This document shows positions 18,041 through 27,783 of a stretch of DNA of 64,000 nt, one piece after another. Position 1 is the first letter of the stretch. Every line of letters begins with the position of its first letter. The position numbers and the translations under genes are program-made. This DNA comes from Cyanobium sp. FACHB-13342 (GTDB lineage Bacteria; Cyanobacteriota; Cyanobacteriia; PCC-6307; Cyanobiaceae). The stretch covers positions 186,001 to 250,000 of the forward strand of contig NZ_JACJRT010000007.1 in assembly GCF_014697415.1 (NCBI RefSeq). Direction: 5' to 3'. The notes beneath the pieces were generated by a model, which was not told where the DNA came from, ran no database searches, and worked only from the letters and a program-made list of their open reading frames with translations.

Positions 18041-19665
18041 TGGCAGGCCTGCTTGTTGATCCGGCCAGCGACCGCTGGGCCGACTGGGGTCTGCTGGATG
18101 GTCCGGATCCAGGCCGCCAGCAGAACGGCCCCCAGGTCCAGCAGGCCTTCCGTGATTTCATCGTGGCCGCTTATCCCGGCTACGCCTTCCACACCTGGGC
18201 CGAGCGCCTGATCGCCCTGCTGCAGCGGGTGGCCGAGGGCGAGCTCAACCGCCTGATCGTCTGCTGCCCCCCGCGGATGGGCAAATCACTGCTGGTCTCG
18301 AAGCTGTTTCCGGCCTACTGGGTGAGCCGCTACCCCACACGCTTCTGCGCGATCGCCTCCTATTCGGCGGAGCTGGCCTATGCCCATAGCCGTGAGGCAC
18401 GGCACTACTACCGTGCCGTCGGCCATCCCCTCTCCAAGGACTCCACCGCCGTGGGCAACTGGCTGACGCCCGAGCGCGGTGGCTGCATCGCCGCCGGCGT
18501 ACGCGGCCCCTTCACCGGCAAGGGCTACGCGCTGGGGATCATCGATGACCCCTACAAGGGTCCAGAAGACGCCAACTCCGCCGGCCAACGCCAGAAGCTG
18601 ATCGAGTGGTTCCAGTCCGTCTGGCTCACGCGAGCTGAACCGGGGGTGAACGGCAGTGCTGGAGCCGCGCAGGTGGTGGTGCTGACCCGCTGGCACCAGG
18701 ACGATCTGATCGGCTGGCTGCTGGCGCAGGAGAGCGGTGACGCTCCGCAGCAGTGGCAGGTGCTGAACTTGCCGGCCATAGCTCAACCGCCCCAGCAGCA
18801 GATCAAGTTCCCGGCCACATGCACCGTCGAGCCGGACTGGCGCCAGCCCGGTGAGCCGCTCTGCCCGGAACGGTTCCCGCTGGTGGAGCTGGAGCAGATC
18901 CGCATCCGCACCGGCAGTTACTGGTGGAACGCGCTGTATCAGCAGCGCCCCTCTCCGGCAGAGGGCCTGCTGTTTCAACGCGCCTGGATCCGCACCGTTG
19001 CGAGCAACCGTTCACCAGACGGTCGGCCGGTGCAACGGCCCTTTGCAACGGTGGTTCTGAGCTGTGACCTGAGCTTCAAGGGGGGAGCTGAGAACGACTA
19101 CTGCGGCTTCTGCCTGCTCGGCTTGCTCCCGGATCAGGAGACCCGCCACCACCCTGCAGCCCAGGCCCTGGCACGGGGTGAACAGCTCCACCCCAGTGCC
19201 GCCCAGGTGCGCTCTCCGGCCGAACCGCAGAGAGACGACAAACACCGGATCGAGGTGATCTGGAGCCAGCACCACCGCCTCGACCTTCCGGGGGTGGTCA
19301 ACTTCCTCGGCCAGACCCTTGCGTCTCTGGACAAACGCCTGAGTCCTGGTGCGGTGCTGATCGAAGACGCGGCCAATGGCCCGGCCGTCTGCCAGCTGCT
19401 GCGCCGCCAGATCCCTGGCCTGATTGCTGTGCGGCCCAATGGCAGCAAGGTGAGCCGCGCCCATGCGGTGGCTCCCTTGCTGGAAGCCGGCCAGCTGGCG
19501 TTTCGCAGCGGCAACGACGCCCTGATCAGCGAACTGCTGGGTTTTCCCAACGGGGCCCACGACGACCTGGTGGATGCCTTCTGCCAGGGCGTGATTTGGC
19601 TGCAGAGCCAGCACTGGCGCAGCCAGGGCAAGGCCACGCCCCGGCCGCTGCTGTTCTCCCGCTGA
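18040..19665 (+). CDS. terL: Terminase large subunit
   Basis: The 541-residue protein has the packaging ATPase Walker A CCPPRMGKSLL (about 75-85) and Walker B LGIIDDPY (about 165-172). The RNase H-like nuclease domain has acidic motifs SCDLSFKG (about 341-348), IEDAANG (about 441-447) and HDDLVDAF (about 507-514). TerL translocates and cuts DNA at the portal during head filling. All motifs are intact, so the packaging motor should be active. It is coupled to terS. Confidence 0.95.
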   Translation: MAGLLVDPASDRWADWGLLDGPDPGRQQNGPQVQQAFRDFIVAAYPGYAFHTWAERLIALLQRVAEGELNRLIVCCPPRMGKSLLVSKLFPAYWVSRYPTRFCAIASYSAELAYAHSREARHYYRAVGHPLSKDSTAVGNWLTPERGGCIAAGVRGPFTGKGYALGIIDDPYKGPEDANSAGQRQKLIEWFQSVWLTRAEPGVNGSAGAAQVVVLTRWHQDDLIGWLLAQESGDAPQQWQVLNLPAIAQPPQQQIKFPATCTVEPDWRQPGEPLCPERFPLVELEQIRIRTGSYWWNALYQQRPSPAEGLLFQRAWIRTVASNRSPDGRPVQRPFATVVLSCDLSFKGGAENDYCGFCLLGLLPDQETRHHPAAQALARGEQLHPSAAQVRSPAEPQRDDKHRIEVIWSQHHRLDLPGVVNFLGQTLASLDKRLSPGAVLIEDAANGPAVCQLLRRQIPGLIAVRPNGSKVSRAHAVAPLLEAGQLAFRSGNDALISELLGFPNGAHDDLVDAFCQGVIWLQSQHWRSQGKATPRPLLFSR

Positions 19666-19685
19666 GGGACCTACCCCCATTCCTG

Positions 19686-20204
19686 ATGATCCCCACACCA
19701 CAGGCCCACATCCCCAGGCCCCAGCAGACCATTGCTCGCGTAACGACATCAGTTCGTTCGCGAGGCCCTTTGCGCTCGCCTCATGCCGCTGCTGATGCTT
19801 TGGTGGTGGAGCACCTGCCTTTTGCTGCCAAGGTGGCGGCCAACTATGCGCGCCGCACCGGGCACCCGAAAGAAGACCTCGAGCAGCTGGCGGCAATCGG
19901 GCTGATCAAAGCCTCACGGCGTTACGACATCCATCGCCCGGGCCGCAGTCCCAATCACTTCATCGCCTACGCCCGGCCGTTCGTGAACGGCGAGATCACC
20001 CACTACCTGCGGGATAAGGGTTTTTTGATCTCGGTACCAGGGCGTTGGCGGGAGCTGCATGCGCGGGGGCAGAAACTTTTGAGAGAAGGGGTTGTAGCCC
20101 ACGAAATCCCGCAACAATTGGGGCTCTCGGCTGATCGCTGGGCTGGAATCTGCCAAGCATGCGCGGTTCGGGTTGTGGCGATGGAGAGCGAAAAGCAGGA
20201 ATAA
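19686..20204 (+). CDS. Element-encoded sigma-70-family factor
   Basis: The 172-residue protein contains a sigma region 2: VVEHLPFAAKVAANYARRTG, then HPKEDLEQLAAIGLIKASRR, then FIAYARPFVNGEITHYLRDK (about 40-115). A shorter helical part (WRELHARGQKLLREGVVAHE) resembles region 3. A full region 4 is not evident, so -35 recognition may need a partner or another mode. The ATG at 19686 places the fold correctly. It sits between terL and the structural genes, where a late-gene sigma factor would be expected. Confidence 0.78.
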   Translation: MIPTPQAHIPRPQQTIARVTTSVRSRGPLRSPHAAADALVVEHLPFAAKVAANYARRTGHPKEDLEQLAAIGLIKASRRYDIHRPGRSPNHFIAYARPFVNGEITHYLRDKGFLISVPGRWRELHARGQKLLREGVVAHEIPQQLGLSADRWAGICQACAVRVVAMESEKQE

Positions 20205-25307: not shown

Positions 25308-25592
25308 ATGACGCGCTGGCACTACTACCTGGCCTTTTGGAGCCGTCGCTCCACCGCCACCGTGGTGCCGGCGCTGAATCGCAGCCAGGCTAGGGATCGT
25401 GCTCATGCAAGGCAGAAAGCCGGCTACGGCAGCTTGGTGGCGATCCAGCAGGCCAATGAGGCCGACCGCCGCCTGATCCGTCAGGGCGTGTGGGTGCGGC
25501 GGCGCCGCAATGGCAGCAGCCCCCAGTTCGGCTCAGCTCCCGCTCGTGCTGCAGCGCGCAGGCAACGGAGCCTCTACCGGCCCTGGCTCTGA
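25308..25592 (+). CDS. Small arginine-rich protein after scaffold
   Basis: The 94-residue protein is strongly basic (SRRSTATVVPALNRSQARDR, VWVRRRRNGSSP, RAAARRQRSLYRP) with a hydrophobic start WHYYLAFWS. It starts 5 bp after the scaffold stop. It may bind DNA or RNA or be a minor head component; no family is recognised. Confidence 0.45.
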   Translation: MTRWHYYLAFWSRRSTATVVPALNRSQARDRAHARQKAGYGSLVAIQQANEADRRLIRQGVWVRRRRNGSSPQFGSAPARAAARRQRSLYRPWL

Positions 25593-25634
25593 GATCAGCC
25601 ACTGGTCTGCAGGTGGGCTGGCCAAGGGCAGAAA

Positions 25635-25653
25635 GGCCCGGCAACGCCGGGCC
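25635..25653. terminator. Bidirectional stem-loop between convergent genes
   Basis: GGCCCGGC (25635-25642), a three-base loop and GCCGGGCC (25646-25653) form a perfect 8-bp hairpin in the 75-bp gap between convergent genes. There is no T tract. The same 8-base arms recur at 31548-31583, the other convergent junction in the structural region. Confidence 0.6.
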
Positions 25654-25667
25654 ACAAGGCCGCCGCC

Positions 25668-25883
25668 TCAGAGCACCGAGACGGTGCCGAGTCGTTTGGC
25701 GGCCAGCTTGCGGGCCAGCTGATGGGCCAGCTCAGCTGGAATGAAACGCGGCTTCTTCACGGGCTTGCCGCGGCGGCCATAGAAGACCGTGACGCGCTCG
25801 GCAGCGGCGACCTTGAGCCCAGCCGGATAGCAGTGCAGCACGAGCTGACGGATCGGACAAGCCAGAGGAGCAGAGGAGGCCAT
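25668..25883 (-). CDS. Small basic protein in the lysis-like cassette
   Basis: The 71-residue protein (CPIRQLVLHCYPAGLKVAAA, ERVTVFYGRRGKPVKKPRFI, AHQLARKLAAKRLG) is rich in Lys and Arg. The ATG at 25883 is chosen because upstream sequence is the structured noncoding region. It is the last gene of the leftward group that starts with the C39-like peptidase. The function is unknown; DNA or RNA binding is possible. Confidence 0.5.
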   Translation of the reverse strand: MASSAPLACPIRQLVLHCYPAGLKVAAAERVTVFYGRRGKPVKKPRFIPAELAHQLARKLAAKRLGTVSVL

Positions 25884-25892
25884 GGGACTGAG

Positions 25893-26029
25893 GCGAGGAA
25901 CACCTGTCCCATCGCCCCGGACGACACGCCCTGGCCAGGGTCGGCGTAGCCGACTCGCGTCAGCCCTTGCCAGGGCGGGGCGAGCAGGGCGCAGCCCTGC
26001 GCTCCGGGGCAGTGCTGGTGCTTCCTCGC
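25893..26029 (-). other. Highly structured intergenic element (candidate RNA or attenuator)
   Basis: A nested set of complementary segments folds the whole gap. GCGAGGAACACC (25893-25904) pairs with 26017-26029 (12 bp, one bulge) and GCCCCGG (25914-25920) pairs with CCGGGGC (26004-26010). Inside lies CGCCCTGGC (25927-25935) with GCCAGGGCG (25969-25977), which encloses GTCGGC-GTA-GCCGAC (25940-25954). A further hairpin has stem AGGGC/GCCCT (25986-25998). The result is a branched structure closed by a long stem. Flanking genes read leftward, so a leftward transcript would contain it. The family is unknown. Confidence 0.55.
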
Positions 26030-26061
26030 TGACCCCATGGCCGGACCGCTGGACCCGGACA

Positions 26062-26319
26062 TCAGTTGTCTGGATCGCGGCGCCGGGCACTGACGATGCT
26101 GCCGCCACCGAGCAAGGCCAGGCTGGTTCCAACCGCCGCCTCAAAGGTCTGCTGCAGGTTCTCGGCGTAGCTGCTGCACACCGGGCCAAGCCGCCGCTGC
26201 AGACCAAGCCAGAAGCAACCGCCCAGGCCAGCGGCATAGAGCGCGAACTGGGCGATGAACACCCCAGCCACGGCCCGCAATAGGAAGCGCTCGCGATCAA
26301 ATCCTTCCCCACCAGCCAT
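26062..26319 (-). CDS. Small membrane protein, holin-like
   Basis: The 85-residue protein has hydrophobic segments FLLRAVAGVFIAQFALYAAG (about 12-31) with GLGGCFWLGLQ, and TFEAAVGTSLALLGGGSIVS (about 58-77). A charged tail (ARRRDPDN) completes it. Size, two-span build and the position just after a peptidase gene suit a phage holin. Holins have no sequence signature, so this is a positional call. Confidence 0.5.
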   Translation of the reverse strand: MAGGEGFDRERFLLRAVAGVFIAQFALYAAGLGGCFWLGLQRRLGPVCSSYAENLQQTFEAAVGTSLALLGGGSIVSARRRDPDN

Positions 26320-26336
26320 GGCTGTGCTCCTTGGGG

Positions 26337-27122
26337 TCAGGGATGGCAGGTGAGCAGCCAGCCGGTGCCGGGGCCATCGGCCTGCCAGCGCGGCAGCCAG
26401 TTCTTCCAGCTGTAGTGCTGCCCTGCTCCATTGGTGTTGGCGGTGTAGCCGCCGTGGACCAGGTCGGCCTCACCGTTGGGGTCGTTGTGGATGGCGACTG
26501 TCTCGGTGAAACCGATCACCACGCTCCAGTGACCGCCGCCGCTGGGTGCAGAAGCGGGGCCATGGTGCAGCCAGCCCACAGCCACTGGCCGCCCCAGCTT
26601 GATCTGCTCCTCCAGCGTTGCGCGCTGGCCGTTGGTGGCGAAGTGGGCGGTCAGCCCCAGGGACCGCAACGCCGCCAACTGCGCTTCTGCCGAGGTGGTG
26701 TCGCCATAGCGGGCACGGATGACGTTGTAGGCGTCATCGCCACTGACCTTGCCCCAGAAGCGGGCGAGCATGGCGCAACTGCTGGAGAAGCACTCGCGAT
26801 AGCCGGTGCCTGAAGCGTTGTCGTTCTGGTTCTCCCAGGCCACCGGCAGCGGATTGGCATGGGCCGAGGCTGGGGGAGCTGATGAAAAGGTCTGCCGCCA
26901 GAGGGCGGCCTCGGTGAGGACCTGTGGATCGGCCGCCATGACCGCCTGGCGCAACTGCTCGATGCCGGCGAGCTGCTGAGGCTGAGCCTTCCAGTGGTCC
27001 CAGAACTGGCGCCAGCGTTCAGCACTGAACGGCGCCTGGACAGCAGGCGTGACGGCAGCCGGAGCGGGAGAGCTTGCAGACATGGCAGCAGGGCAGTCCT
27101 CTGCTGTTGCCGCAGCATCCAT
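26337..27122 (-). CDS. C39-like cysteine peptidase, candidate lysis enzyme
   Basis: The 261-residue protein has a C-terminal C39-like fold. The catalytic Cys region is GTGYRECFSSSCAMLARFWG (about 104-123), the His is in GGGHWSVVIGFTE (about 195-207) and the Asn/Asp loop is HNDPNGEAD. Peptidases of this family cleave peptide bonds, here possibly peptidoglycan cross-links or a protein substrate. It is the first gene of a leftward group with a holin-like protein. In-frame ATG 27083 is an alternative start. No classical lysozyme or amidase domain is present. Confidence 0.68.
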   Translation of the reverse strand: MDAAATAEDCPAAMSASSPAPAAVTPAVQAPFSAERWRQFWDHWKAQPQQLAGIEQLRQAVMAADPQVLTEAALWRQTFSSAPPASAHANPLPVAWENQNDNASGTGYRECFSSSCAMLARFWGKVSGDDAYNVIRARYGDTTSAEAQLAALRSLGLTAHFATNGQRATLEEQIKLGRPVAVGWLHHGPASAPSGGGHWSVVIGFTETVAIHNDPNGEADLVHGGYTANTNGAGQHYSWKNWLPRWQADGPGTGWLLTCHP

Positions 27123-27217
27123 CCACTGATCCAGGCCTGCCTGCGTGTCACCTGTCGGGCTGCTTGAGACCGCCGCGCCCGTGATCCCTGCGGTTCAGAT
27201 TGCTTAGCCTGGGGGCC

Positions 27218-27436
27218 ATGACCAACCCCCAGCTCACCGAGAACCTGCTCGCCGTGATCCGCAGCCTGCCGGCTGACGATCGCCGCTGGCTGCTCAGGCA
27301 GCTGGAGCAGGACAACAGTGACCTGAGTCACGGTGCCCTGGCTGAGATGGCGATGGCCGGGGGAGCCTTTGACGACCTGGCCGCTGAACCTGAGCTCTAC
27401 AGCTTCTCCGACGGAGAAGCGATCGTTGCCGGCTGA
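27218..27436 (+). CDS. Antitoxin of a MazF-type TA pair
   Basis: The 72-residue acidic protein (NPQLTENLLAVIRSLPADDR, RWLLRQLEQDNSDLSHGALA, AEPELYSFSDGEAIVAG) has a helical start like small DUF-type antitoxins. Its TGA overlaps the ATG of the MazF-like gene (TGATG). The tight coupling and acidic tail are the main evidence. I prefer ATG 27218 over 27200. Confidence 0.65.
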   Translation: MTNPQLTENLLAVIRSLPADDRRWLLRQLEQDNSDLSHGALAEMAMAGGAFDDLAAEPELYSFSDGEAIVAG

Positions 27437-27783
27437 TGCTCAGCCGCTACGACATCGTGCTTGTCGCCTTCCCTTTCACGGATGGGCCGGCGGCCAAGCC
27501 TCGCCCGGCTTTGGTGATCACCACCAGTGATCGCCATGGGGATGTGCTGCTGGCCTTCATCAGCTCCAACATCAGCGGCCCAACGGCCAGCGATGAGCTC
27601 GACATCCCAGCCGACCATCCAGGCTTCTCAGACACCGGCCTGAAGGTGAGCTCAAGGCTGCGGCTCAGCCGCATGACAACGCTGGCCATGCCACTCGTGA
27701 AACGGCGCATCGGACGGCTGCCACTGGCCTTGCAGACGAACTGCCAGCAGGTGCTGCAGCGGGTGATCGGCGGCCAAGGCTGA
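27436..27783 (+). CDS. MazF/PemK-family endoribonuclease toxin
   Basis: The 115-residue protein starts YDIVLVAFPFTDGPAAKPRP then ALVITTSDRHGDVLLAFISS, the PemK/MazF beta-barrel signature. SRLRLSRMTTLAMPLVKRRI and ALQTNCQQVLQRVI follow toward the C-terminus. MazF toxins cut mRNA at short motifs. It is the second TA pair in the element and lies between the lysis-like cassette and the major capsid gene. Confidence 0.82.
   Translation: MLSRYDIVLVAFPFTDGPAAKPRPALVITTSDRHGDVLLAFISSNISGPTASDELDIPADHPGFSDTGLKVSSRLRLSRMTTLAMPLVKRRIGRLPLALQTNCQQVLQRVIGGQG

Follow-up and report, generated by a model that had tools for sequence, protein, structure and literature searches.

The window, by which we mean the whole stretch of 64,000 nt that was analysed (Cyanobium sp. 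FACHB-13342), contains a prophage. On its + strand lie the genes for the terminase large subunit, the portal, the scaffold, the major head protein and a collagen-like tail fibre; a short leftward cluster encodes an endolysin, a holin-like protein and a basic 71-aa protein. Among the relatives of the source genome are Cyanobium usitatum and Synechococcus sp. HJ21-Hayes. The basic protein, a marker of the lineage, matches nothing in Pfam, in PHROG or in the phage collection that was searched; its AlphaFold model is beta-rich with one helix, at a mean pLDDT of 64.7 that is too weak for a fold search. The interval between the endolysin and the major head protein genes (window 27200-27783) holds a toxin-antitoxin-like pair of 78 aa and 115 aa, MazF/PemK-like by eye, and a very similar pair is found close to prophage genes in G061 (L272:17910-18475).

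Between the holin-like gene and the basic-protein gene lies a GC-rich (74%) element that folds back on itself in a nested manner. RNA of the - (gene) strand at 25893-26029 is predicted to fold with -84.8 kcal/mol, compared with -67.2 +/- 4.1 kcal/mol for dinucleotide shuffles (z -4.3), and 0/200 shuffles folded as well as the real sequence; the + strand reaches -89.4 kcal/mol (z -5.2). The nested fold of the original prediction is thus present, and each of its stems was found again: P1 of about 12 bp with a bulge, P2 of 8-9 bp, the P2a hairpin of 7 bp, P3 of 9 bp or more and the apical hairpin P4 of 6 bp. The extent needs correction. The 137 bp had been taken for the whole gap between the genes, which actually measures 178 bp (25884-26061, bounded by the basic-protein ATG at 25883-25881 and the stop of the holin-like gene at 26062), so that the structure occupies most but not all of it, and the outer boundary had been drawn too tightly, because a further stem (26042-26034 / 25886-25878) pairs across the start codon. 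None of 4227 Rfam families matched the window at the gathering score, and at E<=1 twelve loci gave no family match, with one chance match elsewhere in L075.

Table 1. Parts of the structured element and the adjoining genes, with window coordinates.
Feature	Position	Strand	Basis or remark
P0 5' strand, anti-start segment GGCCAUGGG	26034..26042	-	pairs with start-codon region CCCAUGGCC
P1 5' strand GCGAGGAAGCACC	26017..26029	-	fold; both-side changes in 6/12 P1 pairs, 19 elements
P2 5' strand GCCCCGGA	26003..26010	-	fold and covariation model
P2a side hairpin GCAGGGC UGC GCCCUGC	25984..26000	-	fold
P3 5' strand, ends with conserved CAAGGG	25964..25977	-	covarying; both-side changes in 9/13 pairs
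Conserved unpaired tip CUGACGCGA	25955..25963	-	near-invariant between gene families; flanking stems vary
P4 apical hairpin GUCGGC UAC GCCGAC	25940..25954	-	covaries with GCCGC/GCGGC and GUGGUGCG/CGCACCAC
P3 3' strand	25927..25939	-	fold and covariation
P2 3' strand UCCGGGGC	25914..25921	-	fold and covariation model
P1 3' strand GGUGUUCCUCGCC, holds GUYCYUCGCC motif	25892..25904	-	
P0 3' strand	25878..25886	-	contains AUG of basic protein
Tip RNA segment CAAGGGCUGACGCGAG..CCUUG			
Downstream gene, 71-aa basic protein	25668..25883	-	
Upstream gene, 85-aa holin-like membrane protein	26062..26319	-	
Endolysin	26337..27122	-	PHROG 10051; Peptidase_C39-like

From the outside inwards the stems follow in the order P0, P1, P2, an optional P2a, P3, the unpaired CUGACGCGA and P4. 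Stem lengths, and the spacing between conserved blocks, differ widely among elements. In the window group P1 reads GGCGAGG.../...CCUCGCC, and a GCCCC/GGGGC pairing in P2 recurs across most families; P2a is replaced by CACCCC/GGGGUG in L075 and is missing from several families. The tip has the architecture CAAGGG-CUGACGCGAG-hairpin (P4)-CCUUG, with CAAGG and CCUUG closing P3. Three basic-protein leaders (L051, L053 and L071) lack P3 and P4 while retaining P0, P1 and P2; the tip domain is therefore a module that can be removed. The second conserved block, GUYCYUCGCC, starts 18-21 nt 5' of the start codon, at the same position in all leader-bearing genes, and among the ORF starts of the window and of nine prophage loci it was found mainly before such genes; a match at window 38607 lies within an unrelated gene and was discarded as chance. 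The window copy itself carries CCUGG, not CCUUG, facing CAAGG (25930-25940) and an A in place of G at the first P1 pair (26030), and because these are single-sided changes this copy may be slightly decayed.

The outermost stem pairs with coding bases, the second codon included. Its partners are GGCCAUGGG/CCCAUGGCC in group A of the basic-protein leaders, AGCCAUCAC/GUGAUGGCU in group B and GCCCAUGG/CCAUGGGC in L075, and the AUG-spanning pairing covaries between groups A and B. Compared with random windows from the same locus, P0 is significant in 6/6 group A leaders (p < 0.03) and, within group B, in L051-L053, L070 and L071 (p < 0.02); by the same comparison it is not significant in L041, L054, L072-L074 and groups C and K. 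Swapping the partners of the basal stem between elements is decisive for the basic-protein groups only, and partly for the 70-aa family, while in the 65-aa, sigma, ArdC and other families the cognate partners pair no better than swapped ones. Where the basal stem ends, the start codon follows 8-10 nt further 3'.

The pairing is kept by compensatory change. Across 19 elements from several gene families both sides have changed in 30/47 pairs and 92.2% of cells are paired, in an alignment that was fitted to a covariance model and is therefore biased towards the model pairing. The covariation score of these elements is 0.303, compared with <=0.050 when the partners are slid, and 0/500 shuffles reach it. 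Among 11 close relatives both-side changes occur in 9 pairs, again reached by 0/500 shuffles. A check of P3 without the covariance model gives 8.6/12 pairs for the true partners and 6.9 for swapped ones (0/2000 shuffles reach the true value), although here too there is a bias, the closing arm having been picked for best pairing. Homologues that keep the genes without the stems, or shuffled sequences of equal GC that fold as well, had been named in the original prediction as evidence against a functional RNA; since the homologues retain the stems by compensatory change and the shuffles fold less well, the prediction has passed on both points. When sequences are folded singly, the z-scores of the 65-aa and sigma families are weak. 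As to the strand on which the structure acts, the opposite strand folds equally well or better in most families, and single-sided changes at pairs predicted in both strands leave G-U in 14 cases and A-C in 15.

In prophages of Synechococcus/Cyanobium and in IMG/VR contigs, a scan for the tip CAAGGGCTGACGCGAG and a covariance model, R1, found the same architecture ahead of genes from at least six families. The families are the basic 71-aa proteins, a family of 70-79 aa (CPIRIISVHL...) whose 70-aa protein is a distant relative of the basic protein, a 65-aa family that follows the holin, ArdC (ArdcN + MPTase-PolyVal), a sigma-like factor (Sigma70_r2 and r4), and proteins of 115, 146 and 174 aa. 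An ORF start lies within a fixed range 3' of 52/60 distinct sites having the tip motif and a closed hairpin, and the orientation is constant: the element is always on the same strand as the ORF start and directly upstream of it. One viral contig (L088+L103) has the element three times, and the region before its sigma-like gene probably holds a fourth copy. Counts of the tip pattern far exceed those of a reversed-pattern control in the window's family of genomes and are near the control level outside it; a second pattern used on IMG/VR, GGCAAGGATCRGGCC, proved too unspecific. The source genome holds one copy, which led us to reject a dispersed host genomic repeat. On another viral contig, L066 + L076 (IMGVR_UViG_3300042113_000560), the element and a basic-protein gene occur together twice, ~5 kb apart.

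Comparison of related prophages shows with which gene the element travels. In three relatives it is 85-97% identical and lies directly before the basic-protein gene, with the holin ~600-770 bp away from it, and an IMG/VR entry (L062) has a basic protein and element identical to those of the window; more distant basic-protein homologues, to ~50% identity, carry leaders of the same plan. In G005 a gene on the opposite strand, absent from the window, stands between holin and element, and in G004 the intervening gene is a 65-aa gene bearing its own copy of the element. The neighbours of the element thus appear, from these gene orders, to be exchanged as modules. Whatever its upstream neighbour, the element accompanies the basic-protein gene, and so it belongs with the downstream gene and not with the lysis genes. 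Its earlier description as a feature of a lysis cassette has to be abandoned, as it recurs before many different phage genes. By eye, the intervening gene of G005 (L285, G005:C2) is HD-phosphohydrolase-like.

We consider it probable, from comparative sequence analysis, that the element is a structured 5' leader which recurs in a freshwater Synechococcus/Cyanobium phage lineage and controls the translation of scattered genes. The fold, the covariation, the recurrence, the orientation, the fixed distance to the start and the pairing of the AUG in most members of groups A and B were computed directly, and a leader that masks the start is the most economical account because it explains the constant orientation and start distance, the variable stems with kept pairing and the compensation at coding bases. 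Among the three functions originally proposed, regulation of the downstream basic protein by a leader agrees best with the data, because the element is retained beside that gene when the gene upstream differs and because the start codon is covered by the element's outer stem. Such a leader would be transcribed in the same direction as the downstream gene and would fold as a long nested rod, P0-P1-P2-P3-P4. When closed, the rod should block ribosome entry, because the basal stem lies near the start and, in most basic-protein leaders, the AUG is paired. The tip, CAAGG-CUGACGCGAG-P4-CCUUG, and the GUYCYUCGCC block are the likely recognition sites of a shared phage or host factor, which would act in trans to open or to stabilise the rod, so that the basic protein, its 70-aa relative, the 65-aa protein, ArdC and the sigma-like factor would be regulated together. 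That factor could be one of the small leader-bearing basic proteins, which would make it a candidate for autoregulation. The absence of a Shine-Dalgarno sequence from 57/57 leaders was dropped as a special trait, since many window genes lack one too.

Some observations do not favour this reading. The G-U changes do not exceed the A-C changes, so selection on the mRNA strand is not favoured; P0 is not significant in several leaders, the basal stems of the 65-aa, sigma and ArdC families are no better than swapped partners, and no sigma-70-type promoter was recognised near or upstream of the window copy. Arm-templated correction of quasi-palindromes could also mimic part of the covariation. The even G-U and A-C counts, and the comparable folding of both strands, would be expected if the element acted as DNA, with transcripts beginning at the start codon or close to it. 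It would then either extrude as a cruciform or single-strand hairpin to which a phage protein binds, or be an unusual promoter that the phage sigma-like factor uses. That one of the leader-bearing genes encodes a sigma-like factor, and that GUYCYUCGCC occupies the place expected for the -10 box of a leaderless transcript, agree with these DNA-level accounts. However, a promoter would have no need of a P0 that pairs coding bases including the second codon, and the stem lengths and spacings vary widely, P3 and P4 sometimes being absent. Taken jointly we regard the two DNA-level accounts as rather unlikely; the cruciform site of the original prediction keeps some probability, because the other strand folds as well and G-U changes do not exceed A-C changes.

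Other explanations are harder to reconcile with where the element sits. Nested stem-loops that head several separate phage genes in one orientation recall put-like antitermination, in which the nascent RNA would interact with RNA polymerase so that it reads into each leader-bearing gene, but the fixed 8-10 nt spacing to the start and the pairing of the AUG point to translation, and there are no terminators beside the window copy, which makes such a role improbable. The count of intrinsic terminators at 25550-26400 is 0, and TTTT occurs in the last 60 nt of 2/57 elements only; with neither T-tract nor terminator, the attenuator originally suggested finds no support in its strict sense of transcription termination. 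We think it just as improbable that the element is an imperfect palindrome marking exchangeable gene cassettes (morons), with a role like that of attC or REP sequences. Element and gene do act as a cassette, the intervening gene varies among relatives and integron integrase genes occur in the same genomes, but the attC boxes are missing (RYYYAAC, R'', in 0/57 and GTTRRRY, R', in 3/57 elements), the source genome has one copy, and the element always has one orientation immediately before a start codon; against a REP element, which would be present in many copies, the source genome has one copy and gave no PF01797 match for a Y1 (TnpA_REP) transposase. The idea of a packaging-type RNA (pRNA) is likewise unsupported, as a phage carries several copies, every one of them immediately ahead of an ORF start, and none of the Rfam families matches. 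Chance self-complementarity, or an ordinary terminator, might be suspected in intergenic DNA of 74% GC where strong stems form easily; the z-scores against dinucleotide shuffles and the conserved compensatory changes make this extremely improbable, and we take it to be refuted by the covariation.

Returning to the masking leader, a broader version can be put forward tentatively: a rod-like, start-codon-masking leader class with a common tip has spread before unrelated accessory genes, among them those of the anti-restriction protein ArdC, a sigma-like factor and small basic proteins, to form a post-transcriptional regulon, and one trans factor switches all of its members. Within that version the factor is perhaps the leader-bearing basic protein family itself. 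If true, this would be a testable RNA-based control system in the prophages of freshwater picocyanobacteria, and ArdC and the sigma-like factor, being downstream of it, are relevant to host takeover. The strong covariation, the conserved candidate binding tip and the tip-less natural variants are assets for such work; L051, L053 and L071 are natural tip deletions and would be useful controls.

Leaders that mask a translation start site are established in phage cIII-type and ribosomal-protein-leader-type control. As in those systems, an alternative RNA structure over the initiation region is predicted to control translation, and the small basic product could be an autoregulator. Unlike them, a single class, recognised here from sequence alone, is common to many unrelated genes of the same phage, and this, together with the basal stem covering the start codon, would make the leader unusual. 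To our knowledge, shared leader RNAs before several genes of one phage have rarely been described. Among cyanophage RNAs, the manA, wcaG and PhotoRC-II motifs are structured elements in potential 5' UTRs, reported mainly from marine sequences and upstream of metabolic or photosynthesis genes (PMC2864571); the present element, which has no Rfam match, differs in preceding small phage proteins, ArdC and a sigma-like factor. The glnA and Downstream-peptide motifs are cyanobacterial leader RNAs upstream of a short ORF (PMC2864571), whereas here a long rod, again without an Rfam match, precedes conserved phage proteins of 65-330 aa. With integron attC sites the element shares the form of a long imperfect intergenic palindrome with conserved ends and variable stems; it differs in lacking R''/R' boxes, in its location 5' of phage genes and in its single copy in the source genome.

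Two further observations concern genes mentioned above. The terminase gene is overlapped at its end by an ORF (window 19596-20204) for a protein with sigma-70 region 2, in which region 4 was not detected; sigma-like genes of related prophages carry a leader, but none was found in front of this ORF. Homologues of integron integrases, full-length and scoring over the TIGR02249 cut-off, are present in G005 (G005:C5:260168-261106) and in the source genome outside the window (G000:C1:20462-21418), the latter copy having one in-frame TAG.
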